Notes under the pieces: generated by a model
Seen by the model: only the letters and a program-made list of their open reading frames with translations
What the model was told of the DNA's origin: nothing
The model's database searches: none
NCBI GenBank assembly: GCA_947462535.1
Contig: CANHPN010000019.1
Location: 1-36,829, forward strand
Length of the DNA stretch: 36,829 nucleotides
Reading direction: 5' to 3'
DNA from: Akkermansiaceae bacterium
GTDB lineage: Bacteria; Verrucomicrobiota; Verrucomicrobiia; Verrucomicrobiales; Akkermansiaceae
Shown here: positions 2,442-31,923 of the stretch, one piece after another
Layout of the letters: the number at the start of each line of letters is the position of its first letter
How positions within the stretch are numbered: the stretch's first letter is position 1
Position numbers and translations under genes: made by a program

Positions 2442-5400
2442 TTATTCGACTCTCACATTGAGGCGGAAGAACCGGTCAGGACTGTCAGCCGGCAGCGTGA
2501 CGACGACGTTTTGGTCATCGCTCGTGATTCCGCTGGCGTCGGTGGCACCGACGAGGTTCGACCAACCTGTCACAGGCTGCCAGGAAGCGGCGTTGGCCAG
2601 ATTGGCGGTGCTTTCAACGGTATATTTGCGAGTGAGGCCGGTGTAGCCCGGACCGCTCGCGCGGCGCGCCATGAAGCTCAGGGTGAATTGTGTGTCGGCG
2701 ACAAGGGCAATGGCCAACGGCGGCTGGCTGAAAGCGCGGGGATCGGTGCCAAAAATGTATTCCTTGTGGTTGTTGAAATCGTCGCCATCCGCGTTCGCAT
2801 TGTCAGCTGCGAGACCGTCGCTGATTTCAGCGGCACTGAAATGGGCGCTTCTCCATGAGGTTTTCAGGTAACCGTTGATTACCAGAGTATCGTTCGCGGA
2901 ACCGATGTAATTCAAGATGACGACGGCGCTTGAGGTGCTGGTCGAATTGGTGGCGTTGCCCAGGTATTTAGCGGTGATGTTGTGGGAGCCGCTGCTCAGG
3001 CTGCTGGTGGTGAAGCTGGATTGGTAGGATCCGTTCAGGGTGCTGGTGCCGAGCAAGGCGGAGTTGTCATAGAAAGCCACATTTCCCGTTGGGTTGCTGC
3101 CAGTCACCGTGGCGTTGAAGGTCAGCGGCGTGCCGGGGTTAGCGGGCGTGCTGCCGCTGGTGAGCGCGAGCGTTGTGTTGGTGGAAGGCAGGACGGTGAT
3201 CGTGCCGACGCTGGTGCTGGTGAAGTAGCCGTCGTTCTTGAAGGCGGCCGATGAGGCGCTGCCGCCATAGGTGCCGGGCGGCATATCGATGCCACCGAGG
3301 CTGAGCAAGGCGATGACGCGGTTTCCCGAGTAGTTCAGATTGGCCTTGCCGCCGGTTGCGATGCTTAGCGCGCCGGGAGCCACCGAGGCGGCCTGATAGA
3401 CGATGGTTCCCGCCTGGATCGTGGTGGGGCCGGTGTAGCTGTTGGTGCCGTTCATCGTCCACTGTGAGGTGCCGACGGTGGTGATTCCGCCGGAGCCGCT
3501 GATGTTGCCGGATATCTGGAAGCCGCCCGTCGCTCCGAAACTGAAGGTGGAAATGCCCGTGAGGGTGACGGGACCGCTGAACAGGCTGGGGAAGCTGTTG
3601 CCGCCACTCACTGTGCCGCTGTTTAGGAAGACGGCGTTAGAAAAGAAAGTGCGATTGACGCTCAGATTGGCGTTCTCGTTGATCGTGATCGGCCCGGTGC
3701 CGAAATGCGGGGTGGTGGCGCCCGAACCTGCCAGTAAAGTCACGGTGCCGTTGTTCAGAATGGTGCCGCCGGTGTAGGTGTTGTTGAAATTGTTGATCTG
3801 AAGCGTTCCGGGGCTGGTCTTGATCAATCCGCCGCTTCCCGAAATGAGCCCCCCCAGTGTGACCTTGCCGCCATAACTGCCGCCGGCGGTGGTCGTGGCC
3901 GTGAGTTCGAGCGGCGTGTTGACCGTCACCGCGTTGGCGCTGTTCTGGTTGAGTTGGGGCAGAGTGCCGCCGTTCGCGGAAAACGAAAGGGTGTTGGTGC
4001 CGGCGATGGTCACCGTGCCGGAAAAGTTGAGCTGGTTGAGCTTGAGTCCGTTATTGAGGTCATGGGTGGCGGTGTAGGTGTCCGTCGGAGCGAAATTGAG
4101 ATTGAGGTAGGCCAGTCCGGCGGCTGGGGGTGCGGTGCCGCCGACCCAACTGGCACCGGCGCTCATGTTGGCGGAAACCACGCTGGCCCAGGTGGAAGTC
4201 ACCGGCAGGCCGGCCGCGACAGAGATGGAAACGGTGGCGGGGGATGAGTTGCCGGTGCCGTTGTTGATGAGGAAGGTGAAGCTGTCCGTGCCGTTGAAGT
4301 TGGCGGCCGGGGTGTAGGTGAGGTAGGGGGCGGTGCCTGTCAGCGTGCCGTTGGAAGGTTGGGTTAGGACGGCATAAGTGAGTGTGCCGCTACTGCCTGT
4401 CAGCGTGATCGCCTTCGCGGTGTTCAGCACGGTGGAAACCGTTTGGGCATGGGCGTAGGGTATTCGCTTGGTGATCCCGCTGCCGTCAAACAGGTAGGCC
4501 TCGGGAATGATGGCTCCGGTTATTCCGGCGACTGATGGGCCGGTCCATTTGAGTTTGGCGGCGGCGGAACCGGTGTTTTCATAATACTCCATCTGGATTT
4601 CCAGCATCTGGCCCTTGGTCAGTTGGATGGGAGCGGAGTCTGTCCATTTGGAATTCTGGTCCACGAAGTTATCGATGATGGGAACACCGTTGATGTAGAG
4701 CCGGACCCCGTCGTTGCTGAGCGTGGAAAAGGTGTAGGCGCAGGTTTCGGGAACCAACAGCAGGCCGCTCCAGCGCACGCTGAAGGTTTCCGCGTTGATC
4801 GAGGCGTGCGGAGATCCCGTTGCCCAGTCGAAGTTCACCTGCGCGTCGGCGCGCGTGAAGACGGGATTGGTGAAATTGGAGTTGTCGAAATACTCGCCCT
4901 TGAGTCCGGTGCCCGCGTTGCCGACGACGATGCCTACCGTGGCGGGTTCGGAGGTCGTGAGGGTGTCAGCGGTGCGGAAAGTGAAGTGGTCGGTGCCGGT
5001 GTAGCCGGGATTCGGGGTGTAGATGAGGTTCGGCGCGGTGCCGGTGAGCGTGCCGCTGGAAGGCTGGGTGAGAACCGTGGAGGAGACGGAGGCTTCACGG
5101 CAGGAGGACCCGGTAAGGGTGATGGCCTTCGCGGTGCCTGCGGCGGTGGTGGCGATTTGTCCGCCGGCGGCGGCTTTCAAATACGTAATGGCTGGGGCGG
5201 TGGTGGCCGCCTCGATGCTGTTGATTGCGTTGGCCAGAGCGGTTTGGGTGGAGGAGGACGGCTTCCAAGTGTTGAGGTAGCTGCGCAACGTGGGCAGCGT
5301 CCAGCGGGCCGCCTCGCCATAGGTGGCGATTTCCGATATTGCCTGGTCCACATAGCTAGCATAACCCCATTCGAAACCCGTCGGCACATCCAACACGGAC

Positions 5401-7763
5401 AATCCGAGCGGCACGGTCTCGAAGAATTTGTATTTGGAGAGCACCCGGATCCCCTGTTTACGGCCTGAACCGCTCCACATGCGGCCGCATTGGGTTTCCG
5501 AAAGGATCAGGTTGATGAAATCATTGGGCATGGCCTGGACATCGGCGATGGGCATTCTGTTATAGGCAAAGTAGGCCGGACTATGGCGCACGGCCGAATC
5601 GGGCTGCTTGAATCCGGTGCTGACGGCTGGATAGAGAAGGTTCTTCGCAGCGGTGATCGCGGTTGCCCCGAAGTCAAAATCGTTTGTTCCGGGCGCACTG
5701 GCGAAAAGCGCAAACGACAATTTGCCGTTGCTCGCCTGAAGTGGGTCGCTCCAAACAATCGTGTCAGGATTGGCCGCGTTGTCCACGAACCTCGTGAGCA
5801 TCGTGTTGACCTGGGAGTTGGCTGCGGTTCCATAATCGCGCAACGCGGTGGCTGCGGTGGCGCGCACCCAGGGATCGGTCTCGACGGTTTTGTCGAGACG
5901 CTGGGTGATCATGATCATGGCGGTGGCGTCCTTGCACAGTCCCAAAGTCTGGCAGGCCCCCATGCGGCCATTGGCATTGGTGCCGCTGAGCATGTTGCGC
6001 AGGTTAGTCAGTTCCGTAAAAGTGAGTGTGCGGGTGGCCAGTTCTTTTGCAGCCAAGTTGCGCACGACCGGATCGAACTCGCTGAGGTCGCCGATCAACT
6101 GGGTGGTGCTGCGGCTCGTGCGGTCGAATTTGTAGGTCGCCGCGGCGATGGCGTCGGAAACCTTGGTGGAATCGAGTTCATGGGCGGGGTTGGCTTCCCT
6201 GCCGGTGATGAAGAGACGCTTGAGCGGAAGGCTGTAGGTGAGCAGGTAGCAGGCCGTGGGATTCAGACCGTTGTATCCGGAAGTGCCCAGATAGGTGCCA
6301 TCAGAGGTTTTGCCCGCGTCGTATTGCTCCCCTCCGTCATAGGCGAAGGATCCGTCGGTGCGGCGCGAGAGATCCAGATGCCAGCGCACGGGTTTGAAGT
6401 ATTCGGCCACGGCAGACTGGCCGCCGATGTTGGTTGCCATGCCCTCCCACAGGTAGCTGAAGCCTTGGCCGGTGTGGCCGTGTTCTCTCCCGGTGAAACC
6501 GGCCACGCACATGCGGGTGAAGTATTCGGTTTCCGCGACCCGGTTGTCCTGCTGGCTGAAGAAGAGGGCTGCCGTCTGGTCCTTGCCGTTGGAAGCATGA
6601 TCATTCGCCCTCGGGTGGTGCTCGCCGTAGGGGATCGACCCCTTGTTGACATACCACGAGAAGAAATTCGACGCGCGCTGGATCGCGGCGTCGACCTGCG
6701 GATCGACCGTCTGTGCACCTGCGAGCAGGGCTTTTCTGCCCATGACCATCGCCAGGTTGGCCGGCAGGCCGGCGGCGTTGACAGGGCCATAGCCGGTGAC
6801 CGACATGCGGCCGGTGCCGTCCGGTCTGGGCAGCGCCGGGCCATGGCCGAAGGTGCCGAACAGGCTCTGGGATTGGGCGAGCTTGAGGCTGTATTGGCTG
6901 ATGCCGGGCAAAACGGCGGAATCCGGCACGCCGTCAGCGACGGTGCGCAGATAATATTCCGCGAGGAAGTTGCCGCAGTAACCCCAATTCCAGATCGGGA
7001 GACCGCTGTCCACCGGTCCCGCCGCAGCGAGGGCACGGGCATAGGTCTGCAGGCGGGTTTGGACCGCGCTGTAGTCGGGATCACCGGGAGCCACGCCGGC
7101 CAGCAAGGCCAGGCCGCTGGCAGCCCCCTTCCAGTCGCTCGTCAGGATGGACGGCGCCGGGGAAGGTGCAAGGAGTTGGCTGACCAGTTTGTTGCGGGCG
7201 TTAATACGGATGAGGTCCGACTTCGGGCAGTTGTAGGGGGCGCTGGCGCTGTAAGTGCCCATGGCGGCCAGGGTGACCGAGACATCGGTGGTGACCCCGG
7301 CGCGCCAGTGTTTGATGCGCAGGATGCCACCGTTCTCGGTCTTTTCAGCCTCGGTGATGGCTGCGCCGAAGGCCTTGCGGGCATCGCTGGTGAACATCGG
7401 CAGCGGGTCTGTGCCCGATCCCCAGCCCACGCCGAGAATTAGGTCGTCCACCGCCAACACCGCGTTGGCGGGTGCGCTGGCGACCGTGACCAGGATCTGC
7501 CTGTCCTCATCCGTCATCGTGCCATCCTGTCCGTAGGTCGTGCCAGAGCCGCGTCTAAGATACATCCATCCGCGCAGACCGGTGGGGCCGAGGTTGTAGG
7601 TCAGGCTGTAAAGCGGCGAGGCGGCCGTATCGGTCTTCAGTGCGGCGATCGCTCCGGCGGCCGTGAGGTCCGGCGGCGCGGCATGGACGGATGCCGACAA
7701 CATTGCAACCAAGGCAAGCGACATCAATTCGACTGATCTGCGGGAAGCAGAGAGACGTTTCAT
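2442..7763 (-). CDS. Giant secreted multidomain protein (DUF6288-like, HEAT-like, PA14, beta-strand repeats)
   Basis: The chosen start gives a 1,773-residue protein with a good Sec signal peptide (MKRLSASRR..., core LMSLALVAML, cleavage near SVHAA). The frame stays open 61 codons further upstream, but that part is repeat-rich leader. Approximate domains: DUF6288-like N-terminal half (30-520); HEAT-like helical repeats (about 530-660); a cadherin/Ig-like module with 'LTQPSSGTLTG' (864-948); a PA14 carbohydrate-binding-like domain starting GLKGEYFDNSNF (953-1075); a second 'LTQPSNGTLTG' module (1104-1190); two passenger-type beta-strand repeats with GSGGL and YTGGT/YTGPT motifs (about 1304-1349 and 1418-1465); an Ig-like Big_3-type domain (1524-1619); and a C-terminal region typical of large verrucomicrobial exported proteins. 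No autotransporter barrel, LPXTG or PEP-CTERM tail is visible. It is likely extracellular or cell-surface; a glycan or adhesive role is inference from PA14 and the repeats. Confidence 0.85.
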   Translation of the reverse strand: MKRLSASRRSVELMSLALVAMLSASVHAAPPDLTAAGAIAALKTDTAASPLYSLTYNLGPTGLRGWMYLRRGSGTTYGQDGTMTDEDRQILVTVASAPANAVLAVDDLILGVGWGSGTDPLPMFTSDARKAFGAAITEAEKTENGGILRIKHWRAGVTTDVSVTLAAMGTYSASAPYNCPKSDLIRINARNKLVSQLLAPSPAPSILTSDWKGAASGLALLAGVAPGDPDYSAVQTRLQTYARALAAAGPVDSGLPIWNWGYCGNFLAEYYLRTVADGVPDSAVLPGISQYSLKLAQSQSLFGTFGHGPALPRPDGTGRMSVTGYGPVNAAGLPANLAMVMGRKALLAGAQTVDPQVDAAIQRASNFFSWYVNKGSIPYGEHHPRANDHASNGKDQTAALFFSQQDNRVAETEYFTRMCVAGFTGREHGHTGQGFSYLWEGMATNIGGQSAVAEYFKPVRWHLDLSRRTDGSFAYDGGEQYDAGKTSDGTYLGTSGYNGLNPTACYLLTYSLPLKRLFITGREANPAHELDSTKVSDAIAAATYKFDRTSRSTTQLIGDLSEFDPVVRNLAAKELATRTLTFTELTNLRNMLSGTNANGRMGACQTLGLCKDATAMIMITQRLDKTVETDPWVRATAATALRDYGTAANSQVNTMLTRFVDNAANPDTIVWSDPLQASNGKLSFALFASAPGTNDFDFGATAITAAKNLLYPAVSTGFKQPDSAVRHSPAYFAYNRMPIADVQAMPNDFINLILSETQCGRMWSGSGRKQGIRVLSKYKFFETVPLGLSVLDVPTGFEWGYASYVDQAISEIATYGEAARWTLPTLRSYLNTWKPSSSTQTALANAINSIEAATTAPAITYLKAAAGGQIATTAAGTAKAITLTGSSCREASVSSTVLTQPSSGTLTGTAPNLIYTPNPGYTGTDHFTFRTADTLTTSEPATVGIVVGNAGTGLKGEYFDNSNFTNPVFTRADAQVNFDWATGSPHASINAETFSVRWSGLLLVPETCAYTFSTLSNDGVRLYINGVPIIDNFVDQNSKWTDSAPIQLTKGQMLEIQMEYYENTGSAAAKLKWTGPSVAGITGAIIPEAYLFDGSGITKRIPYAHAQTVSTVLNTAKAITLTGSSGTLTYAVLTQPSNGTLTGTAPYLTYTPAANFNGTDSFTFLINNGTGNSSPATVSISVAAGLPVTSTWASVVSANMSAGASWVGGTAPPAAGLAYLNLNFAPTDTYTATHDLNNGLKLNQLNFSGTVTIAGTNTLSFSANGGTLPQLNQNSANAVTVNTPLELTATTTAGGSYGGKVTLGGLISGSGGLIKTSPGTLQINNFNNTYTGGTILNNGTVTLLAGSGATTPHFGTGPITINENANLSVNRTFFSNAVFLNSGTVSGGNSFPSLFSGPVTLTGISTFSFGATGGFQISGNISGSGGITTVGTSQWTMNGTNSYTGPTTIQAGTIVYQAASVAPGALSIATGGKANLNYSGNRVIALLSLGGIDMPPGTYGGSASSAAFKNDGYFTSTSVGTITVLPSTNTTLALTSGSTPANPGTPLTFNATVTGSNPTGNVAFYDNSALLGTSTLNGSYQSSFTTSSLSSGSHNITAKYLGNATNSTSTSSAVVILNYIGSANDTLVINGYLKTSWRSAHFSAAEISDGLAADNANADGDDFNNHKEYIFGTDPRAFSQPPLAIALVADTQFTLSFMARRASGPGYTGLTRKYTVESTANLANAASWQPVTGWSNLVGATDASGITSDDQNVVVTLPADSPDRFFRLNVRVE

Positions 7764-10213: not shown

Positions 10214-11785
10214 TCAAGCCTCGACCTCGGCGACGATGCGCGGGAAGACCGGGCTTGGCTTTTCGATGACGTGGCCGTCCGGCAGCAGGCCCCAGTGGAG
10301 GTCCGTTAGCTTGAAGCCGGTGAGCGCTGGCAGGTTGAGCTGACCGGCGAGTTTCGCGGCGGCGTCCGGCAGGATGGGGGAGAGCAGGACCGTGGCGTGG
10401 GCGACGCTTTCCGCAAGATGATAGAGAACGGTGGCGAGGCGCTCCTTGTTCTCAGGGTTCTTGTTGAGCTCCCAGGGCTTCATGCGCTCGGCGTATTGGT
10501 TGCAATGCACGATGTGGCGGCTGAGCGCTTCGAGGCCTTTTGAAACGTCGAACTCATCCATCGCGGTTTGATAGGCGGTGATCGATTCCGTCAGTGAGGT
10601 TTGCAGCGCGGTGTCGTCCCCGGTGAGCGGGCCGCCGTGCTGGAGCACTCCGCCGGTGAATCGTTGGCTCATGTTGAGCGCGCGGTTGCAGAGGTTGCCG
10701 AGCTCGTTGGCGAGCTCGGTGTTGAAGAGCATGATCAGCCGGTCCATGTCGAAGTCCGAATCCTTGCCAGTGACGATGTCGCGGACGAGGTAGTAGCGGA
10801 CGGCCTCGACGCCGAACTTGTCGGCGAGTTCGTTAGGATCGACGACGTTGCCGGTGGACTTGGCCATTTTCTCGCCGCGGATGTTCCACCAGCCGTGGAC
10901 GAGCAGGCGCGGCATCTGCGCATCGGTGAAGCCCATGGCGTGAAGCATGCAGAGCCAGTAGATGCCGTGTGCGGGGATCAGGATGTCCTTGCCGATGATG
11001 TGGACCGGGCGGCTGTCGGCGGGCCAGAGTCTGGCGAAATCCGGCAGGCCCGCGTCCGGCGCGGCCTGATAACCGGCGAATGAGATGTAGTTGATGAGCG
11101 CGTCGAACCAGACGTAGGTGACAAAGTTTTCATCGAAGGGAAACTCGATTCCCCATTGCAGGCGTTCCTTCGGGCGTGAAATGCAGAGGTCGATGCCGGA
11201 GTTCTTCTCAAGCGCGTTGAGCAGCTCGGATTTGCGGAACGCGGGGATGATGACCTCCGGGTTGTTCTCGATGAAATCCTTGAGCCAGTCGGTGTGGTCG
11301 CTGAGTTTGAAATACCAGTTCTCTTCCTCGATCTCGACGACCTCGCCCCACTCGGGACCGAAATTTCCGGCTTCGTCGCGGTCGCGCTCTTGGAGGAATT
11401 GTTCCTGGCGGACCGAGTAGAATCCGGAGTGTGCTTTCTTGTAAAGTTGGCCCTGATCCTTGAGCCCGGTGAGAATGCTGCGGACGCAGGCCTTGTGGCG
11501 CTCGTCGATGGTCTCGGCCCAGCCGTCGTATTTCACGTCGAGTTTCTCCCAGAGCTCGGAGAATTTCCGGGTCGTGCGTTTGACGAAATCCTCGGGGGAA
11601 ATCCCTTCTTTTTCGGCAGTCTGTTGGACTTTCTGGCCGTGCTGGTCGACGCCGGTCAGAAAAAACACCTCGTCGCCACGCAACCGGCGGTAGCGGGCGA
11701 TCACGTCGGCAAGGACCTTTTCATAAGCATGGCCGATGTGCGGGGAGCCGTTGGTGTAGTCGATGGCGGTAGTGAGATAGAACAT
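10214..11785 (-). CDS. metG: Methionine-tRNA ligase
   Basis: Charges tRNA-Met with methionine (cytoplasm). 523 residues with the class I signatures HIGH (residues 16-19, SPHIGHAYEKV) and KMSKS-type KMAKS (306-310, EKMAKSTGN), followed by the alpha-helical anticodon-binding domain. The insert lacks CxxC zinc knuckles (GFYSVRQEQFLQERD), so it belongs to the zinc-free, shorter bacterial type. The C-terminal EMAP/tRNA-binding domain of longer MetG proteins is absent; the protein ends soon after the helical bundle. Divergent from der across a 463-bp region. Confidence 0.96.
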   Translation of the reverse strand: MFYLTTAIDYTNGSPHIGHAYEKVLADVIARYRRLRGDEVFFLTGVDQHGQKVQQTAEKEGISPEDFVKRTTRKFSELWEKLDVKYDGWAETIDERHKACVRSILTGLKDQGQLYKKAHSGFYSVRQEQFLQERDRDEAGNFGPEWGEVVEIEEENWYFKLSDHTDWLKDFIENNPEVIIPAFRKSELLNALEKNSGIDLCISRPKERLQWGIEFPFDENFVTYVWFDALINYISFAGYQAAPDAGLPDFARLWPADSRPVHIIGKDILIPAHGIYWLCMLHAMGFTDAQMPRLLVHGWWNIRGEKMAKSTGNVVDPNELADKFGVEAVRYYLVRDIVTGKDSDFDMDRLIMLFNTELANELGNLCNRALNMSQRFTGGVLQHGGPLTGDDTALQTSLTESITAYQTAMDEFDVSKGLEALSRHIVHCNQYAERMKPWELNKNPENKERLATVLYHLAESVAHATVLLSPILPDAAAKLAGQLNLPALTGFKLTDLHWGLLPDGHVIEKPSPVFPRIVAEVEA

Positions 11786-11868
11786 GATGGAAGAAAATGG
11801 GAACGCGGGAGACGAAGGAAAGCAGAGAGGGTCGGAGTGTGCAAGTCGGAGTGGCGGGGGGAGAATTA

Positions 11869-11927
11869 TGTCCCGTCTGAGGCAGCCGGGAGCGGTGGCT
11901 ATGAATCCGCCTGAGACAGCCGGGACA
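11869..11927 (+). repeat. REP-like palindromic element, copy 1
   Basis: A 59-bp element beginning TGTCCCGTCTG and ending GCCTGAGACAGCCGGGACA. Its ends pair imperfectly (GTCCCG with CGGGAC, and TCTGAGGC against TCTCAGGC). An inverted copy at 18073-18130 matches at about 52 of 58 positions. It lies between metG and der, outside any supported gene. Both short spurious peptides it can encode (CLRRIH.HRSRL.QTGHN) recur at the second copy, confirming the relationship. Confidence 0.75.
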
Positions 11928-12248
11928 CTCTCTCAATTCCCACCGCGCGGTCCCCGGCGGTCACCGCGACCGCCCCACATGCCCGCTGCCGCATCGCATC
12001 GCGTTGAGTTGTGCCCCCTCGCTGTCCTGCTCCTTGAGGAAATCCACCGCCTTGCGGGGATCGCTTTTGGCGACACCCACCACCAAAGTCACAACGGGAA
12101 CCACTCAGGAGTTTTTCATAAATGTAGGGATTTCAAACCTCCGCCATGTCGATGGTTGCGCGTTTTCAGCAGTCAGACCTCCATCTCAAGTCGGAAAAAA
12201 AACCTCCGACCTTGCCTTTGCTTCGTTCTGCCCCTACATCCCTCAGCC
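11928..12248. other. Non-coding region upstream of der, with a possible gene relic
   Basis: No complete gene is seen. On the minus strand (about 11955-12100) a short open stretch reads VGVAKSDPRKAVDFLKEQ, resembling the 'WAKSDP.AA..W' repeats common in hypothetical verrucomicrobial proteins. It is bounded by stop codons and has no good start, so at most it is a relic. The der frame is open through this region, but the residues do not resemble a GTPase. No clear der promoter is visible. Confidence 0.3.
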
Positions 12249-13646
12249 ATGCCTACTGTTGCCATCGTCGGACGCCCCAATGTGGGAAAGTCCGCTCTCT
12301 TTAACCGCCTTGCCGGGCGGAAGATCGCTATTGTCCACGACCAACCGGGCGTCACCCGCGATCGCATCGCGGCTCCTTCCAAGGCCACTCAGGTCGCCTG
12401 CACGCTCATCGATACAGGCGGTATCGGCGGCGGCATCGAGGACGGCTTCGACGAGCAAGTCGGCATCGAGGCGGACATCGCCATGCAAACCGCCAATTTG
12501 ATCCTTTTCGTGGTCGATGCCCACGCCGGCCTGACCGCCGTCGATCAAGCTCTCGCGCAAAAACTCCGCAAGGCCAAGCCGTCCGTGCTGCTCGTCATCA
12601 ACAAGGTGGACGATGACAAGCACGAGAACTCCCACTCGGATTTCACCCGCCTCGGCCTCGGCAACAGCGTTTTCGTCTCCGCCGAGCACGGTAGGAATTT
12701 CGGCGTCCTCTGCGATGAAATCGACGCAGCGATCGCCCCGCTCGTTTCGGAAGCCGAGGCAGAAGCCGAAGTCGCCGAGGAAATCGGCATCAAGCTTGCC
12801 ATCGTCGGCAAGCCCAACGCCGGCAAGTCCTCTCTCGTCAACGCCATCCTCCACGACGAACGCACCATCGTTTCCGAAATCGCCGGCACCACCCGCGACG
12901 CGGTCGATCTGCCCTACACCTTCGAGGGCGAGAAATTCACCCTCATCGACACCGCCGGTCTCCGCCCACGGGCCAAGCGCGACAACTCCGTCGAAGTCTT
13001 CTCCGCGATGCGCACCGAGAAAGCCGTCCGCCGCGCCGACCTCTGTGTGCTCGTCATCGACCTAGCAGCAGGCATCACCTCGATGGACCGCAAGATCGCG
13101 CAGCTCATCATGGAGGAGAAAAAACCCTGCCTGATCGTGCTCAACAAGTTCGATCTCTTCCACCCCGGAGCCAACCGCACCGCTCGCTTAGAGGAAGCCG
13201 GCGAACACGTCCGCAAGGAGTTGTTTTTTCTCCACTACGCGCCTTTTGTCGCCTGTTCGGCGAAAACCGGTGGCTCCGTGGACCACGTGCTCAAGGAAGC
13301 GCTCAAGATCAAAAAAGGCGCGCAAAACATCCCCGGCACCGGCCAGCTCAACCGCATCCTGCAAAGTGCCTTCGAGGCCACTCCGCCGCCGATCGACAAG
13401 AAGCTCAACAAGCGCCTCAAGCTCTACTACGCCACCGCCGCCGTGGATCAGAAATACAGCGTCATTCCGGTGCCGACCATCGTGCTCTTCGTCAACGACA
13501 AGCGCCTCATGGCTACCAGTTACGAGTCCTACATCGTCAACCGCTACCGCGCCGCCCACCCAGCGCCCGGCATCCCGGTCGTTTTATCCGTGCGCTCGCG
13601 TTCCAGAAAAGAGTGGGAACCGCGACAAAAGCCGCAGGGGCACTGA
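12249..13646 (+). CDS. der: Ribosome-assembly GTPase Der (EngA)
   Basis: Essential double-GTPase required for 50S subunit assembly. From ATG 12249 (MPTVAIVGRPNVGKS) it is 465 residues, the normal length. The first G domain shows GRPNVGKS, DTGG and NKVD; the second shows GKPNAGKS (about residues 187-194), DTAG and NKFD; the C-terminal KH-like domain begins near KLNKRLKLYYAT. A longer frame from 11784 has no family similarity and crosses the repeat element, so it was rejected. A short acidic linker (EAEAEAEVAEE) joins the two G domains. Confidence 0.97.
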   Translation: MPTVAIVGRPNVGKSALFNRLAGRKIAIVHDQPGVTRDRIAAPSKATQVACTLIDTGGIGGGIEDGFDEQVGIEADIAMQTANLILFVVDAHAGLTAVDQALAQKLRKAKPSVLLVINKVDDDKHENSHSDFTRLGLGNSVFVSAEHGRNFGVLCDEIDAAIAPLVSEAEAEAEVAEEIGIKLAIVGKPNAGKSSLVNAILHDERTIVSEIAGTTRDAVDLPYTFEGEKFTLIDTAGLRPRAKRDNSVEVFSAMRTEKAVRRADLCVLVIDLAAGITSMDRKIAQLIMEEKKPCLIVLNKFDLFHPGANRTARLEEAGEHVRKELFFLHYAPFVACSAKTGGSVDHVLKEALKIKKGAQNIPGTGQLNRILQSAFEATPPPIDKKLNKRLKLYYATAAVDQKYSVIPVPTIVLFVNDKRLMATSYESYIVNRYRAAHPAPGIPVVLSVRSRSRKEWEPRQKPQGH

Positions 13647-13662
13647 GGAGTCCAAGCTTCCG

Positions 13663-14148
13663 TCAGTCGATGATCTTCCGCATCGGGATCATGCCGGAGT
13701 ATTCGAAGCCCTGCTTCTTGAAAAACTCCTGCGACTCCGCGCCGATCCGGTCCGTTAGCAGGGTGATGCGCTTGAAGTGCTTCTTCTTCGCGAAATCCAC
13801 CACGTAGTCCACCAGCATCGTGCCGTAGCCTTGGCCGCGGTGGTCGGGGTGGATCACCACGTCCTCCATCAGGATCACGAACCCGCCGCAGGCCGTGGAA
13901 ATCGTGAACAACAAATTCACCATCCCGAAGATCTGGTGCTGGTTGCGCACCACGAAGATCCGGCCGCGGTTCGGCTGTTCGAGGATCAACTGCAAGCCGC
14001 GCTCCTGCACCGCGCGATCCGGCGAGAAGTCGTCCGACAAATCGAAAAGATTCATCACCAACTCCGTCAACGCCGGCAAATCCTCGATCGTGGCGGGCTC
14101 CACGCGCGGGCGATCTTCGTCTAGATTCTGCGATGCCGTGTCCGTCAT
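13663..14148 (-). CDS. GNAT family N-acetyltransferase
   Basis: 161 residues from ATG 14148 (MTDTASQNL); a GTG three codons earlier is an alternative. The acetyl-CoA-binding motif A is clear: EDVVIHPDHRGQGYGTMLV, followed by 'RITLLTDRIGAESQEFFKKQGF', a typical GNAT C-terminus. It probably transfers acetyl from acetyl-CoA to an amine, but the substrate cannot be told from sequence. It is the last of four minus-strand genes and lies 62 bases downstream of trmD. It converges on der with 16 bases between the stops. Confidence 0.88.
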   Translation of the reverse strand: MTDTASQNLDEDRPRVEPATIEDLPALTELVMNLFDLSDDFSPDRAVQERGLQLILEQPNRGRIFVVRNQHQIFGMVNLLFTISTACGGFVILMEDVVIHPDHRGQGYGTMLVDYVVDFAKKKHFKRITLLTDRIGAESQEFFKKQGFEYSGMIPMRKIID

Positions 14149-14210
14149 TGTTTTCACGAAAATGAGTTTGGCATGGATTTGGAATCGGAAAACGAAATTC
14201 TCTCTCCATT

Positions 14211-14906
14211 TTAAATTTCAACATCCGGCTGCGGGGATTCCAACAAATCCGGCCGGTTTCGCCGCGTCCGCTCCAGCGCTCGCGCCTCCTTCCACGCCGA
14301 GATTTTCCCGTGATGCCCCGAGATCAGCAACTCCGGCACCACCATCCCGCGGAACTCGATCGGCCGCGTATAGGCCGGGGCTTCCAACAGATTCGGATCG
14401 GAAAACGACTCGTCCACCGACGAGCGTTCGTCGCCCAGCGCGCCCGGCAGCAACCGGATCACCGCGTCACACAACACCGCCGCCGCCAGCGCTCCGTTAG
14501 TCAAAATATAGTCGCCGATGGAGATCTCCTCATCCACCAGCGCCTCGATCACCCGCTGGTCTACTCCCTCGTAGTGTCCGCAGAGGATTAGCAAATGCTC
14601 CGAAGTCGTCAGTTCCCGCGCCACCGCCTGCTTGAACGGCTTGCCCTGTGGGGTCATCAAAATCACCCGCGTCGCCGGCCCGCGCAGCGCCTCCACCGCC
14701 GCGAACAACGGCTCCGGCTTGAGTAACATTCCCTGCCCGCCGCCGCACGGCGAGTCATCCACCCGCCGGTGCTTATCCTCCGACCAATCCCGCAACTGGT
14801 GCCCCACCACCTCCACCAACCCCGCCGCCCGCGCCCGCTGGATGATCGAATCACTCAGCGGAGCCAGCGCCACCTCGGGAAATAACGTCACGATATCAAT
14901 CCGCAT
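14211..14906 (-). CDS. trmD: tRNA (guanine-N1)-methyltransferase
   Basis: Methylates G37 of tRNAs with a G36 using S-adenosylmethionine, preventing +1 frameshifting. 231 residues, the normal length. SPOUT trefoil-knot signatures are present: LCGHYEGVDQRV and EISIGDYILTNGALAA. The N-terminus MRIDIVTLFPE and the SPCGGGQGMLLKPEPLF segment are typical of TrmD. Unusually it is not next to rpsP, rimM or rplS, its common partners, within this window. It lies 62 bases downstream of the alpha/beta hydrolase gene on the same strand. Confidence 0.96.
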   Translation of the reverse strand: MRIDIVTLFPEVALAPLSDSIIQRARAAGLVEVVGHQLRDWSEDKHRRVDDSPCGGGQGMLLKPEPLFAAVEALRGPATRVILMTPQGKPFKQAVARELTTSEHLLILCGHYEGVDQRVIEALVDEEISIGDYILTNGALAAAVLCDAVIRLLPGALGDERSSVDESFSDPNLLEAPAYTRPIEFRGMVVPELLISGHHGKISAWKEARALERTRRNRPDLLESPQPDVEI

Positions 14907-14968
14907 GCCGCGACCCTAGCGGGCACCGCGCGCCGACTCAACTCTCTTGCTCGTTGAAATCAAAAACC

Positions 14969-15697
14969 TCAAGCCCACAACACCCGCAGCCATTCATCGA
15001 CCGCTTCAACAAGCTGCGGGTAACTCGATTCGCCAAACGAATGCCCTGCCTCGCTGATTTCCAACCACCGCTTCTCGCAAGTGGCGGCGGCGAAGGCGTC
15101 GAGCCCGTCCTGCACCGGCACGAGATCGTCCGCATCGCCGTGGATCAGCAACCACGGCTGAGTCACCGCCTCCGCCGCATCAAGAGTGTTGTCGATCAAC
15201 TTCAGGTCATCAACGAAAGTCCGGGACAGCGGGCAATTTTCATCCTCCCACATGAAGCCCGCGTCCGGCGTGACTGCGGAAAACTCGCGCTCCACGAAAG
15301 CGGCGGTGCGCGTCATCCCTGCCAGTGAAACCAAAGCGCGAATACGCATGTCCCGGGCCGCCGTGAGCACTCCGACCGCGCCGCCCATACTGTGCCCCGC
15401 GTAAGCGACATTCACGTCGTTAGGAACCATGTCGAGCACCGCTTGTAGATCACTAATCTCCTTGGAAATGCAGCAAGCCCCAAAGTGTCCTTCCGACGCG
15501 CCGTTCCCCGAGAAGGAAATCCGCAGGCACGGCCAGCCCAGCGCCGCGAGGCCACCCGCCAGCGCGACGAGATGCGGACGGTCTTTGTTCCCCGTCACCC
15601 CGTGGCCCAGGATCACCAATGCATCCGCCCGTGTCCCCGGATGGAACGTGTAGTCGATGCTCTCGCCCGACCGGTTTCGAATTTCTGATCCTGTCAT
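14969..15697 (-). CDS. Alpha/beta hydrolase
   Basis: 242 residues with a complete alpha/beta-hydrolase core. The oxyanion segment is ILGHGVTGNKDRP, the nucleophile elbow is AGHSMGG (Ser103), the acid is in HGDADDLVP (Asp188 to Asp191 region), and the histidine is in EAGHSF (His219). It resembles serine aminopeptidase S33/BAAT-like or DUF-type esterases. No signal peptide, so cytoplasmic. It starts 14 bases after the stop of the upstream reductase, suggesting an operon with it. The substrate is unknown. Confidence 0.88.
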   Translation of the reverse strand: MTGSEIRNRSGESIDYTFHPGTRADALVILGHGVTGNKDRPHLVALAGGLAALGWPCLRISFSGNGASEGHFGACCISKEISDLQAVLDMVPNDVNVAYAGHSMGGAVGVLTAARDMRIRALVSLAGMTRTAAFVEREFSAVTPDAGFMWEDENCPLSRTFVDDLKLIDNTLDAAEAVTQPWLLIHGDADDLVPVQDGLDAFAAATCEKRWLEISEAGHSFGESSYPQLVEAVDEWLRVLWA

Positions 15698-15711
15698 GAT
15701 GTATAAAAATG

Positions 15712-16599
15712 CTAGTATTCCGCGCGACCCGGGAAACTAAGCTCCGCGATCCCCGACTTGTCGAGTTCTCCGAGCCCGAGGTCGATCATTTTCCGGTACT
15801 GCGCCTCGGTCGCCCGGGACAGCGGGACGATCACTCCTGCGGCGTCCGCCATGGCGTTTGCAATGCCGCTGTCCTTCGCCGCATGGGCGGCGGAAAAGTA
15901 GCATTCGTGCTCGCGCGTGATCATGTCGTCGCCATCGGTTTCCAGCACCCGCGAGTTCGCGCCGGTCTGCGAGAAAACCTCCTTGAGCAAATGCAGGTCC
16001 AGACCCAGCGCCGCGCCGAGCCCCAAGCCCTCGGCAAGCCCGGCGGTGTTGATGTTCATGACCATGTTCACCAGTGCCTTGATCCTCGCCGCGTTTCCAA
16101 CAGGTCCGACGTGCCGCAGCGAGCTTGAAATACCCTTCAGCAGCGGCTCCATCCGCTCGTAAACCGCAGGCTCCCCGCCGACCATCAGATAGAGCGTCCC
16201 CTGCCGCGCTTGGGTGATGCTAGACGCCATGCTCGCCGCGAGCGTCGAGGCACCGACCGAGGCCGCCGCCGCTTCCGCAGATTCATGCGCCGCCGGACTC
16301 ACCGTGGCACAGTGGATGAAAACCTTCCCCGTCGCGCCTTTGAGCAGGGACTCATCGCCCTCCAGAATCCCGCGCATCGAATCGTCATCCGTCACGACCG
16401 TGAAGATGACATCCGACGCTGCAGTAACTTCGGGCAGCGTCCTCGCCGCCAAACACCCGAGCTCAACGGCAAGCGATGCCGCTGTCGCCTCATGGTGATC
16501 GTAAACTGCGGCGACCGGGTATCCCAGATCCACGAGACGCCGGGCCATGTTCGCCCCCATCCTTCCAACTCCGACAAATCCAATGGCTGCTTTTTGCAT
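15712..16599 (-). CDS. NAD(P)-dependent 3-hydroxyisobutyrate-dehydrogenase-like oxidoreductase
   Basis: 295 residues from ATG 16599 (MQKAAIGFVGVGRMG); an upstream ATG at 16671 would add 24 unrelated residues. The Rossmann motif GVGRMG (10-15) and a lysine in RIKALVNMVMN (Lys174), at the catalytic position, place it in the beta-hydroxyacid dehydrogenase family (3-hydroxyisobutyrate, tartronate semialdehyde, glyoxylate/succinic semialdehyde reductases). The usual substrate motif DAPVSGG is replaced by AASMASSITQARQGTLYLMV, so the substrate may differ from the named enzymes. First gene of a probable operon with the alpha/beta hydrolase. Confidence 0.88.
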   Translation of the reverse strand: MQKAAIGFVGVGRMGANMARRLVDLGYPVAAVYDHHEATAASLAVELGCLAARTLPEVTAASDVIFTVVTDDDSMRGILEGDESLLKGATGKVFIHCATVSPAAHESAEAAAASVGASTLAASMASSITQARQGTLYLMVGGEPAVYERMEPLLKGISSSLRHVGPVGNAARIKALVNMVMNINTAGLAEGLGLGAALGLDLHLLKEVFSQTGANSRVLETDGDDMITREHECYFSAAHAAKDSGIANAMADAAGVIVPLSRATEAQYRKMIDLGLGELDKSGIAELSFPGRAEY

Positions 16600-16912
16600 C
16601 GGGAGAACTTTGGAGGGAACTCGCCACATGCGCAACTTGAAGTTTAACGGAAGTCCTCGACTACATTTCAAAACATCCCGCCATCAGCGGAGTCCCAGCG
16701 AATCGACCACCGCAGGCAGACCGATCGATAACAGATGGGAGAATGAAACGGTGCAATCCGCGACCGACTCACCGTCCCCCGCTTTCCTGACGAAGGCTTG
16801 TTTGAGAACCGAGAGGTAGCTGTGCGAAAGCCGCGTTCAAGGCGGGAGGGGCTGGACTGCTCCGGCATGTCGGCATGTCGGCATGTCCCCGCAGTCCGAG
16901 AGAATAGAGTTC
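16600..16912. other. Intergenic region with a hairpin, no gene seen
   Basis: Lies between the reductase gene and the end of the broken cohesin-like gene, both on the minus strand. No open frame with family resemblance was found. It holds the hairpin with internal tandem repeats at 16854-16897. Confidence 0.4.
16854..16897. repeat. Palindromic hairpin enclosing three 8-bp tandem repeats
   Basis: A perfect 7-bp inverted repeat (GGACTGC at 16854-16860 and GCAGTCC at 16891-16897) encloses three consecutive copies of GGCATGTC (16864-16887). It lies 16 bp beyond the last stop of the decayed cohesin-like gene. It may be a REP-like element or a terminator stem, but there is no T-tract on either strand. 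Confidence 0.6.
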
Positions 16913-17670
16913 CTACGGCCGCTCCACCACCACCCGCAGGAACCCCCGCGGCTTGGCATTCACGCCGGTGGCGGAAAGGGTGCCGCGCACGCTCACGAAC
17001 TCCGCGCCATCTCCCAGCCGCCGGTAGAATCCGACGCCCAAAAAGCTCTCTCCCCCCACCTAGATCCGTCCCGCCTGAATCCCGCGCTGCTGCGCGTCGG
17101 CGACGACGGGATTTCCGCCAAACGCATACTCCAACAGATTCGGCAGGCCGTTGCGGGCGTTGTCGATGTTCGGCTGGACGGTCACGGCCACTTGGCCGTT
17201 GGTCGTGACGAGCGTGTCCTTCTGGCGGAGGTCGATCACGCCGGTGCTGTCGGAAAGCATGAGGTCGGCGATCGCGAGTTCGGAAGACAGGTTCGTCACC
17301 GCGCCGGGATTGGCCCGGAATTTCAGCACCGCGAGCCGGCCCGCGCCTCCCGCCAGCGCCTCGCCGCGGAAGAACGTGAGCTGCACCAATCCATCGCCAT
17401 AGCCCTGGCTCAACTCGAAAGCCCCGCCTAACGGACAGGCCGTCACCGTCTGGAGTTCGAGCACTTTGGGATCGAAATTGATCTGCACCTGGATCGCGGC
17501 GAGCCCGGCGGCGTTGTCCAGCGTGAGCGGCACTTCGAGGATGCCACCCGGATTCGCCAGGTAGTTAGGCAGTGCAAGCTCCGGGATTCGGCTCGCACGA
17601 CCGCGCTGGTCATTGCGGTCAGCGCCATGGTTCCGAAGACGCTCACAAGCGGATGGGAAATGCGTTTCAT
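16913..17670 (-). pseudogene. Broken cohesin-domain secreted protein
   Basis: Starts with a clear Sec signal peptide in one frame (ATG 17670, MKRISHPLVSVFGTMALTAM, cleavage near AVVRA). It continues in another frame as a cohesin-like domain (PGGILEVPLTLDNAAGLAAI, then INFDPKVLEL), so a single-base loss is implied near 17585-17600. The domain ends in the common verrucomicrobial segment NGLPNLLEYAFGGNP. A TAG at 17060-17062 then interrupts the frame, but the same frame continues past it as VGGESFLGVGFYRRLGDG to a second stop at 16913. Both lesions in one short gene suggest a real pseudogene, although sequencing error cannot be excluded. It follows the dockerin fragment by 13 bases. Confidence 0.7.
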
Positions 17671-17683
17671 GAAAATTGTCAGT

Positions 17684-18072
17684 TCAGGGGCCGTTGAGCA
17701 GTTGGACGAGCAGGACAAGATCCTTTGCGTCGAGCTTGCCGGTCATCAGTTCGTCGGGCGTCGGCGGGCGCGATTTCGGCTTGGTCAAATCCTTGAGCAG
17801 GTCCTTGTCGGCATTGGAAAGGAGCCCGTCGCCGTCGCCATCCCAATCCGTCATCGCTGCGGCCGACCCCGTGCCCGCCTGAATGCCCGTGACCACGCCG
17901 GAATCAGGCGAGAAGAAATCCGTCAGCACGCCACCGATCAGCATTTTCGAGAGCCGCTCGAACGGTTGCAGGTTCACCACCACCTGCGAGGAATCCGGCC
18001 CCACCACGTCGCAATCATTTTCCAACCGTTTTCGCAAAAGCGTCTGAAATGTGCCGAAACGTGTTGAAACGT
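17684..18072 (-). pseudogene. 5'-truncated dockerin-bearing protein fragment
   Basis: A C-terminal remnant of about 130 residues. It ends in a dockerin-type module: DWDGDGDGLLSNADKDLLKD fits the DxDxDGxxxxxD calcium loop and helix, and GKLDAKDLVLLVQLLNG resembles the second half-repeat. Upstream, NLQPFERLSKMLIGG looks like real protein, and the frame runs back without an ATG to the REP-like element at 18073, where resemblance ends. The fragment therefore starts at the repeat boundary. It precedes the cohesin-like gene on the same strand, as an operon of interacting partners would. A TTG at 18037 could serve as a start but gives no signal peptide. Confidence 0.65.
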
Positions 18073-18130
18073 GTTCCGGCTGTCTCAGGCGGATTCATTG
18101 CCATCGCTCCCGGCTGAGACAGACGGGACA
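18073..18130 (-). repeat. REP-like palindromic element, copy 2
   Basis: Inverted copy of the element at 11869-11927, with about six mismatches in 58 bases. The stem here is better: CTGTCTCAG pairs with CTGAGACAG. It overlaps the 3' end of the neighbouring hydrolase gene, supplying its last codons and TGA stop. On the other side it abuts the truncated dockerin gene. A direct repeat, two copies of GAAACGTGTT (18056-18075), lies at its left edge. Confidence 0.75.
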
Positions 18131-19056
18131 CAATCCGCCAGATAGTCCAGCGCCGCCGAGGCCCGCTGGAGGATCAGCGAGAAATGCCCTCTTTCCTCGT
18201 CCACCACAAGCTCCGCGCCGGCGATTTTTCCCGTGAATTCCCGCACCATTTCCACCGGGATGTTCCGGTCCTCGCCGCCGTGCCAATAGCGGATCGGGTG
18301 GCGCAAGTTCGCCAGGTCGACCGTTAGGCGCTGGAAATAAATTTCCGCGTCCGCCATCACCCCGCGCCCGTCGTCTTCGCAGACACCTTCCTGAAAACTC
18401 TTCGTGATCACCTTCCAAACCTCCGGGAAATCCAGCAACAAGCGCCGGTCCTCCGCCGCCACGCTCCGCAACAACCACGACAGGGGCGGCCAACCCGGCT
18501 GCCACCGCGACGCGATGCTCGCGATCCGGAACAGCGCGGAAAACACCCACGGCGGAAGTTTCCGGCAGGGGACCAGCATCTGGTAAAGCGGGTGCAAGCC
18601 GTGCGGCCCGTGTCGCAGTTCCGCCAGCGGCACCGCTCCGCCTAACACTGCGGAGCCGGTCAACCGAGCCGGAATCCGCGCCGCGCATGCAAGCACGTAA
18701 GGTCCGCCGCCCGACACTCCGAGCTGACCGAATTTCCCGATCTGCAAAGAGTCCGCAAACCGCTCCATCAGCTCCGGCCACGAATCCAGCTTCCGCCCCG
18801 CTTCGAAGGTCGAGCGCCCCATCCCCGGCCGGTCCATCGCCACGATCCGCAAGCCGCGTTCGAGTGCGAGGTGGTGCGCCCACCGCGCCTGCAAGCGTGA
18901 GCTCGGCCAGCCGTGGTAATACATCACCGGCAAGCCGTTTGGATCGCCATATTCATTCCAAGCCAGTCGCCGCCCCGGTGAAATCTCCCAGAACCGCGGC
19001 TCTTCCTCAGGCGGCAGGTTCCGCAGGAATTCTAGGGAATAAACGGTATTGGACAT
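18085..19056 (-). CDS. Alpha/beta hydrolase
   Basis: 323 residues from ATG 19056 (MSNTVYSLEFLRNLPPEEEP); a longer frame from 19122 overlaps the mosaic remnant and was rejected. Catalytic features: oxyanion segment YYHGWPSSR, nucleophile elbow GVSGGGPY (Ser115), acid in WHGGEDRNIP and histidine in ERGHFSL, all intact. The pattern matches proline-iminopeptidase/epoxide-hydrolase-like esterases with a helical cap; the substrate is unknown. The last residues (SVSAGSDGNESA) are encoded by the REP-like element, so the natural C-terminus appears to have been replaced or extended by it. All catalytic residues lie upstream, so the enzyme could still work. Confidence 0.85.
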   Translation of the reverse strand: MSNTVYSLEFLRNLPPEEEPRFWEISPGRRLAWNEYGDPNGLPVMYYHGWPSSRLQARWAHHLALERGLRIVAMDRPGMGRSTFEAGRKLDSWPELMERFADSLQIGKFGQLGVSGGGPYVLACAARIPARLTGSAVLGGAVPLAELRHGPHGLHPLYQMLVPCRKLPPWVFSALFRIASIASRWQPGWPPLSWLLRSVAAEDRRLLLDFPEVWKVITKSFQEGVCEDDGRGVMADAEIYFQRLTVDLANLRHPIRYWHGGEDRNIPVEMVREFTGKIAGAELVVDEERGHFSLILQRASAALDYLADCVPSVSAGSDGNESA

Positions 19057-19069
19057 ACGCCGGTTTTGC

Positions 19070-19498
19070 TCATGCTGAAATCGCCAGCAGGCAGGCTCCG
19101 CAAATCCCGGCCTGCTGGCCAAGCGCGGGTGGCACGGCGTAGTCGACTCCTAACACCGGAGAAAAATACCCCACGGCGATTTCTATCAATCGCGCGTTGA
19201 TTTTCCGGGGCAGCCCTTCCGTCTGGCAGACTCCGCCGCCGATGCCGGTGCCGATCGTAATGTACGCCACGCCCTCAAGATCCGCCGTCGCCCCGGTTTT
19301 CGCTTCTGCCAGAGCGGCCGCGTCGACATCGGTTTCGAGTGTTAGAGTGGCGTTTGGAAAAGCATCGGCCAGCGGTTCTGCGGATTCGACCCGGTCAAGG
19401 ACGACGACGGGGACAATGCGTTTGGCGAGGATGCGGTCAATCACGGGAAGGCGAGGTTGAGGGAGGCCCCGGGGAATGCCAAAGAAAATGCCTTCCAC
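19070..19498 (-). pseudogene. Mosaic remnant: KDPG-aldolase start joined to ROK-kinase pieces
   Basis: One open frame strings together unrelated pieces. The start (VIDRILAKRIVPVVVLDRVE) matches the N-terminus of 2-keto-3-deoxy-6-phosphogluconate aldolases. It then changes to a ROK sugar-kinase segment: LETDVDAAALAEAKTGA, then ITIGTGIGGGV, the ROK phosphate-binding part. The frame then skips the middle of the kinase and ends with its usual C-terminus (AVPPALGQQAGICGACLLA). The histidine/cysteine zinc motif of ROK proteins is missing. Neither enzyme could function. A GTG at about 19444 could be the old aldolase start. Successive deletions that preserved the frame are the simplest explanation. 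Confidence 0.6.
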
Positions 19499-31564: not shown

Positions 31565-31923
31565 TGGTGGAGGCGAGGGGAGTCGAACCCCTGTCCGAAA
31601 CGCCGTCAACACTGGCATCTACACGTTTAGCATGATGTCTGGAGTTTCGGACGGGCTAGGCCCTCATGCAGCGTTGCTCGTCCTAGAAACCTGTTTGATC
31701 TCGGAAAGGAGCCCGGTCACCCGACTCCGATCCCAGCCTGCCAGGTGTTCGCCATCCCCCTCAGCAGGTGTCGGGGTTCAGACGTGGTCGTCAATTAAGC
31801 GGCCAGTGCGAGCTCGTTAGAGTCTGCATTTATTTGTTTTGAGCGGCTTTTTTAAGAGGCCAACCGATCAACCTCTACGTGCAACCAGCGCGTCAAACAT
31901 CCCGTCGAAACCAGAACGCCCCC
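31565..31923 (-). ncRNA. ssrA: Transfer-messenger RNA (tmRNA)
   Basis: 359 nt. The 5' end GGGGGCGTTCTGGTTTCGAC and the 3' end GGTTCGACTCCCCTCGCC followed by TCCACCA form the tRNA-like acceptor stem and T-arm, with CCA encoded. The tag reading frame starts with GCA (31827) after AATAAAT and runs to TAA (31795): tag peptide ADSNELALAA, matching the LALAA-type degradation tags of other bacteria. One-piece (not permuted) form. It rescues stalled ribosomes with SmpB, which is not in this window. A 12-bp palindrome, GTCACTTGTGAC (31924-31935), directly abuts the mature 5' end. Confidence 0.97.

Follow-up and report, generated by a model that had tools for sequence, protein, structure and literature searches.

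The window analysed here is a stretch of 36,829 nucleotides from an Akkermansiaceae bacterium whose genome (G000; other genomes are numbered likewise) comprises 2.82 Mb in 104 contigs and is 95 % complete. It carries two mutually inverted copies of a short palindromic element, the second of which reaches into the reading frame of an alpha/beta hydrolase (Table 1). No longer inverted repeat was found in the window than this pair, whose arms (11860-11928 and 18071-18139) are 87 % complementary over 69 nt and are spaced by 6142 nt. The initial annotation had described a palindrome of 58-59 bp present twice, in inverted orientation, 6.1 kb apart; the inverted pair is real, while the size has to be corrected, as the element proper, with limits taken from a 22-nt motif, measures 61 bp and is 1-2 bases wider. 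A tmRNA gene lies elsewhere in the window (31565-31923, minus strand; Rfam RF00023, 156 bits).

Table 1 Genes and repeat elements at the two junctions of the window
Feature	Position	Strand	Remarks
metG	10214..11785	-	Homology to G001 C26 up to 11856, ending at a REPIN in both genomes
REPIN copy 1	11868..11928		Lies between the divergent genes metG and engA; first arm (11868-11889) degenerate, second arm 11907-11928
Right flank of copy 1	11929..12198		Pieces homologous to DNA after gene Y and its REPIN in G001 C60
engA (der)	12248..13646	+	Start according to a simple gene caller
Cohesin-like open frame	17060..17533	-	Weak Pfam match, E 8.5e-7
Open frame, earlier called "dockerin"	17684..18037	-	No Pfam match; occupies the place of gene X in relatives
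REPIN copy 2	18071..18131		REP arms 18071-18092 (+) and 18110-18131 (-); overlaps hydrolase 3' end
REPIN-derived tail VPSVSAGSDGNESA and stop	18085..18129	-	G011 and G040 orthologues: VPAVSAGREGPESG
Alpha/beta hydrolase (Abhydrolase_1)	18085..19122	-	345 aa as called; last 14 codons and TGA inside REPIN copy 2

A dispersed family of 22-nt hairpins

Each copy of the element consists of two inverted 22-nt units flanking a 17-nt spacer, one arm of copy 1 having degenerated to 5 mismatches from the 22-nt motif. This two-arm inverted layout is that of a REPIN, a doublet of REP sequences forming a hairpin, as defined in the original description (Bertels and Rainey 2011, PMC3116915). Copy 2 is predicted to fold, on the plus strand, into a single long hairpin with a z of -6.6 relative to shuffled sequences; the remaining three folds, out of two copies on two strands, gave z values of -2.5 to -3.5. 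The 22-nt unit is a predicted hairpin by itself, CCGRCTG-TCT-CAGYCGG preceded by GTGTY. Four genomes were sampled for half-elements with up to 5 mismatches; in the 226 obtained, positions 9 and 19 form a G-C pair in 145 and an A-T pair in 46, adding up to 191, as compared to a maximum of 147 in 2000 shuffles. Using Rfam at gathering thresholds, no match was obtained at either copy. A short degenerate tandem repeat of the GAAACGTGTT type, seen by eye, adjoins copy 2 at 18036-18070.

Both window copies belong to a dispersed family, GTGTYCCGRCTGTCTCAGYCGG, the members of which are often paired head to head. In G000, 63 half-elements were found (22-mer with up to 3 mismatches), versus none for a reversed-pattern control. 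The REP-like nature proposed in the initial annotation is thereby supported, and absence of the element elsewhere in the genome, which had been named as evidence against the proposal, was not observed. The number of half-elements was 118 in G040, 92 in G001, 27 in G011, 11 in G020, and at most 6 in eight more genomes. Any REP match was present in 13 of the 41 genus genomes searched (G000 included), and the 37 genomes outside the top four had 0-11; the reversed-pattern control gave single matches in four of the 41. With a stricter search setting, a match was obtained in 12 of 73 genomes. Large copy numbers occur in only a few genomes and, therefore, the expansion belongs to a few species.

The unit combines the properties of a REP, a palindromic stem-loop of 20-40 bp in many extragenic copies, with the inverted pairing around a short spacer that is typical of REPINs. 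In a sample of 44 sites of G000, 19 were doublets in +- orientation (up to 4 mismatches) and 25 were singlets, copy 1 of the window being scored as a singlet because one of its arms has 5 mismatches. The neighbouring genes are convergent at 17 of these sites, in tandem at 18, and divergent at 6; the other three are at the ends of stretches. None of the 44 sites lies 30 bp or more inside a gene on both sides, and the distance to a gene 3' end is often no more than about 10 bp. In the 226 half-elements, the first four positions are G (213), T (215), G (215), and T (203); just outside the unit, A is present at -3 in 211 of 225 half-elements and at -2 in 188 of 225. The consensus is about AAWGTGTYCCGRCTGTCTCAGYCGG, and neither a GTAG nor a CGTC tag was present in the family as judged from these 226 half-elements.

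The hydrolase tail and the two junctions of the window

The hydrolase frame crosses the left arm and the spacer of copy 2 and terminates at the TGA in the right arm: the protein ends in ...DYLADC followed by VPSVSAGSDGNESA, and the stop codon (18085-18087) is that of the element itself. The earlier claim that the second copy encodes the last residues and the stop of the hydrolase was correct, as 14 residues and the TGA lie within it. The orthologues in G011 and G040 (84 % identity) carry the same element at the same place and end in VPAVSAGREGPESG. Between G000 and G011, 9 of the 14 tail residues agree by eye, a stretch too short to infer selection. The element is absent from all eight other orthologues that were read to their end; seven of these stop only a few residues away from the last helix, and the tail of the eighth (G027) is unrelated. 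Two more distant orthologues (about 40 % identity) also end without the element. The ten element-free relatives thus end differently and the two with the element share the tail, so the presence of the repeat matches this ending; none of the ten has the hydrolase ending without the repeat, the observation that had been named as one that would speak against the earlier proposal. Using the simple gene caller, a stop codon inside a REP was found at only 3 of the 44 sampled sites, and the call is weak for one of the three genes. The tail represents a selfish repeat becoming part of a protein: inserted, donating a stop, and kept across species.

In G011 and G040, the hydrolase gene is followed by the REPIN and then by a gene here called gene X. 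By eye, gene X also comes after the hydrolase gene in G009 and G004, without a REPIN at that position. In G000, gene X is located at C7:54478-55940 with a lone REP just before it. Gene Y lies on the other side of this REP; in G001 C60, gene Y has a full REPIN after it. The initial annotation had suggested that the element either marks a rearrangement junction or was itself mobilised to this position. The first is supported by gene X, which is next to the REPIN in G011 and G040 and beside a lone REP elsewhere in G000. Both possibilities fit, the insertion coming before the rearrangement because the insertion is common to G011 and G040 and the rearrangement is not. Only one arm is present at C7, so a simple reciprocal crossover of two full REPINs does not fit exactly; an 8-bp microhomology shared by the end of gene Y and the REPIN spacer, TGAATCCG, could explain the loss of the second arm. 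A full-length match to the hydrolase was not found in G001, where the DNA upstream of the hydrolase gene meets a REPIN (stretch L164).

The place of gene X is taken in the window by a segment (16830-18064) for which no convincing homologue was found in its own genome or in four congeners, the best other match having an E value of 5.8e-6 over 60 bases. The name "dockerin" for the frame adjoining copy 2 found no support, as Pfam finds no domain in it even at an E value of 5. By eye, this frame has no convincing start before the REPIN, and no convincing candidate for its supposedly missing 5' part was found in five genomes or, at the protein level, among the stretches compared. The cohesin-like frame seems, by eye, to be frame-shifted relative to an upstream start (17060-17670, minus strand) and may be a decaying gene.

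At copy 1, the homology of the metG side with G001 ends within 23 bp of a REPIN in that genome. On the other side, three pieces of the window (11869-11982, 11995-12085, and 12070-12198) are 76-80 % identical to G001 C60. The order metG-REPIN-Z in G000 thus corresponds to metG-REPIN-W and gene Y-REPIN-Z in G001; in other words, the flanks of copy 1 are those of two different REPINs in G001. The genes engA and metG are on different contigs in G001, G011, G040, and G009. Both window copies share stem changes that deviate from the consensus (CCGTCTG and CCGCCTG) as well as 23 identical nt, which suggests conversion or exchange between the two. A simple inversion between the window copies was considered and rejected: within the engA block (about 12200-16645), the arrangement is the same in G001, in G011, and, apart from gaps, in G040, and it is the neighbours that differ.

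Gene order at REPs across genomes

The REP-centred stretches of G000 (433 kb with the 44 sites, window included) were compared with 1.22 Mb of G001, part of which (C13, C16, C25, C26, C33, C60, and C63) had been chosen for its REPs or for genes of the case study. Genes were called with a simple codon model and it was scored whether adjacent genes stay adjacent in G001; of 325 junctions, 152 were judged and 173, among them 16 with a REP, were not judgeable. Synteny was lost at 18 of the 25 junctions with a REP and at 32 of the 127 junctions without one (p 1.3e-5). When only the largest G001 contigs, C1-C11, were used, the numbers were 8 of 13 versus 23 of 92 (p 0.011), and leaving out the window and C7 gave 16 of 23 versus 27 of 113.

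A common cause could produce this association, with REPs and breakpoints both favouring dispensable intergenic DNA and the REPs being inactive in exchange. REPs are indeed intergenic and near gene 3' ends, positions at which a break may do little harm in any case. The association was retained when junctions were stratified by gene orientation and gap (odds ratio 6.3, p 6e-5), a procedure that reduces but does not remove positional bias; individual orientation classes hold few junctions, and not every class reaches significance (-- p 0.14, -+ p 0.08). A REP of G001 lies within 400 bp of a conserved flank at 17 of the 18 broken REP junctions, and at 2 of the 32 broken junctions without a REP in G000. 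As REPs on the same flanks were also present in G001 at 6 of the 7 conserved REP junctions, a point in line with a common cause, the 17 of 18 mainly reflects REPs shared by both genomes. With REPs mostly shared, exchange has to be judged by the presence of a REP at each of the two separated flanks.

Flank mapping of the 44 sites classified 14 as broken, 8 as colinear (out of 22 with both flanks found), 10 as one-sided, and 12 as unplaced. Adding six more stretches of G001, likewise chosen for their REPs, changed this to 17 broken, 10 colinear (out of 27), 7 one-sided, and 10 unplaced. Over four genomes, 27 broken site-genome pairs were obtained in which homology on either side comes to 100 bp or less from the REP; these pairs overlap because one exchange is visible from several genomes. 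In 15 pairs, each of the two separated flanks lies at a REP in the other genome, and homology often continues to 0-2 bp from the REP before it switches; in 9 pairs one flank does so, and in 3 neither. In these 15 of 27 overlapping pairs, the junction REP joins the flanks of two other REPs, the pattern of REP-mediated recombination, whereas a REP on just one side would be expected from a shared preference alone; a common cause is accordingly regarded as improbable. Site G000 C2:24299 and its counterpart in G040 C2 have the spacer, the right arm, and the right flank in common and differ in their left flanks, a clear mosaic that fits a crossover inside an arm. One flank (flank B) has three different partners, in G001, G000, and G040. 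In G001, the homologues of two flanks that are bounded by REPs in G000 C1 meet without an intervening REP. A dprA-like gene (by eye) has REPs on both sides in G000 (L246:5094-6348), G001 (C2:3963-5210), and G040 (L351:5040-6328).

Contigs misjoined at short repeats would also give swaps at REPs, which would then be no more than chimeric contigs. Each of the four main genomes is split into many contigs (104 to 170, with 104 in G000), at least two of these genomes are MAGs, one contig of G000 opens with a REP (C59:4), and both window junctions rest on one assembly. The exact tracts shared with other copies are somewhat longer at broken sites (18-29 nt) than at colinear ones (0-29 nt). Exact tracts of up to 29 nt would be short for a false assembly join, and in the G000 sample no more than 29 exact nt are shared between REP sites, the two window copies sharing 23. 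The same arrangement across a REP was found in two assemblies, with a third differing or showing one flank, in 20 site rows, which a hand count reduced to about 11 distinct arrangements; for three of these, the two flanks were located and lay apart in the third genome, two of the three having REPs at the broken ends. Moreover, hydrolase and gene X are also adjacent in G009 and G004, where no REPIN is present at that position.

Unequal flank identities (98/92 and 99/91) had raised the possibility of a chimeric contig at the REPIN, which was rejected when sliding identity revealed tracts of high identity crossing it, without a step, in the two pairs examined. G011 and G040 are 96-100 % identical (500-bp bins) over ~4.5 kb around the hydrolase REPIN (L152 about 3000-7500 versus L153), identity further to the right being about 84-93 %. 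Raised identity was also seen over about 3.2 kb (92-100 % in 250-bp bins) across a REPIN in G001 C2:54220 and G011 C62:1042. The tract in G011 and G040 is likely the result of a recent exchange between species, and the arrangement may thus be common to both by recent gene exchange. Taken over these assemblies, misjoining seems a poor candidate for the swaps; for the two junctions of the window itself, it may still apply.

An enzyme acting in trans, a RAYT or another transposase, might move or cut the REPINs, in which case the rearrangements would be failed or alternative transposition and not the result of repeat annealing. G000 has eight matches to Y1-type transposases, and an E. coli RAYT cleaves single-stranded REP DNA, according to Di Nocera et al. 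(2013, PMC3733652). A REP is present in the vicinity of two RAYT-like genes, each time past another open frame: in G000 (C1:154715-155824) a REPIN is present 1.1 kb after the gene, and at the 31st Y1 locus, in G011 (C11:36989-38089), a REP is present 0.6 kb past the gene end. Against this, 30 of the 38 Y1_Tnp loci of G000, G001, G011, and G040 were examined and no REP (up to 5 mismatches) was found within about 1.5 kb or up to the contig end; the REP-associated, RAYT-type transposase that the initial annotation had proposed to look for does not directly flank the elements at these 30 loci. In addition, Y1 counts in 41 genomes do not track REP counts, with 42 in REP-free G035 and 6 in REP-rich G040. 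Transposase-driven rearrangement is therefore considered doubtful. A different palindrome, TTCCCGGCGTAAGGCCGGGAA, occurs after the RAYT-like gene of G000 C1 (stretch L035, C1:153269-156439) and may be the cognate repeat of that gene.

A composite mobile unit was rejected, as some neighbouring REPs are 610-618 bp apart but enclose unrelated DNA. Of the ten inter-REP stretches shorter than 3 kb, seven are mutually unrelated and three represent one orthologous gene, a stretch of 1169 bp with REPs on both sides in three genomes. As for a MITE of a DDE transposon, which would have a target-site duplication, no clean empty site for such a check was found among three candidates.

The explanation we favour, and consider probable, is that a REPIN insertion donated its TGA to the hydrolase and that REPIN copies subsequently served as points of ectopic recombination at which flanking DNA was swapped. 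The REPIN doublet would have been inserted at the hydrolase 3' end in an ancestor common to G011 and G040, or would have been exchanged with them later, after which its built-in TGA became the stop codon of the hydrolase. Ectopic recombination between REPIN copies, with crossovers in the near-identical 22-nt arms, would then have swapped the flanking DNA. In G000, such exchanges would have split gene X from the hydrolase and joined it to gene Y at C7 via a lone REP, joined metG to the DNA that follows the REPIN of gene Y in G001, and placed the unrelated cohesin-like segment after the hydrolase. The family, the hydrolase tail, the insertion shared with G011 and G040, and the changes of synteny that meet at REPs are direct observations. 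We infer both this order of events and the route through the arms, which would involve annealing of identical stretches of about 18-29 nt, with breaks at extruded hairpins as a possible trigger.

A wider reading would have this family, without a GTAG tag and unlinked to a RAYT, act as a genome-wide set of exchange points at which any 22-nt arm can swap flanks, possibly with catalysis by an enzyme in trans. We deem it unlikely; if true, gene order would be modular and the family would in effect be a site-specific shuffling system. On the favoured explanation of REPIN insertion followed by ectopic recombination, tiny palindromic repeats appear to drive changes in gene order between species, and many of the swaps have preserved a repeat at each of their two ends.

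Relation to known REP systems

Opitutus terrae belongs to the same phylum as the source bacterium. Shyamala et al. reportedly observed, in 1990, duplications and rearrangements mediated by REPs. The REPIN paper (PMC3116915) describes inverted short palindromes around a short spacer, a predicted hairpin, compensatory changes, an extragenic location, and the occurrence of both singlets and doublets, all of which apply here. Unlike those REPINs, the present family has no RAYT that was found directly beside it, has GTGT at its outer end, and comes from a bacterium of another phylum than those named there. It is a family without the tag and without the flanking transposase expected of REPINs.

According to Di Nocera et al. 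(2013, PMC3733652), GTAG- and CGTC-tagged REPs are stem-loops of 20-40 bp that form head-to-head dimers, are located near gene 3' ends, and sometimes provide the stop codon or encoded residues of a flanking gene; GTAG families are present in O. terrae. The size of the stem-loop, the dimers, the siting at 3' ends, and the donation of stop and residues are similar in the family described here, which differs in lacking either tag and in donating an internal TGA as the stop.

Clusters of REPs are reported to be recombination hot spots in P. fluorescens (PMC11708052). As in those systems, recombination between dispersed REPs probably rearranges the chromosome here; the difference is that isolated elements of 22-61 bp are found at many places where synteny changes from one species to another, some of them with a REP on either side of the exchange. 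REPs as donors of stop codons and as sites of recombination are, therefore, already known. In the open-licence literature searched, no description was found of the family or of REP-bounded shuffling between species, and this family and the extent of the shuffling look new. For a known kind of system, the record of exchange is unusually clear.
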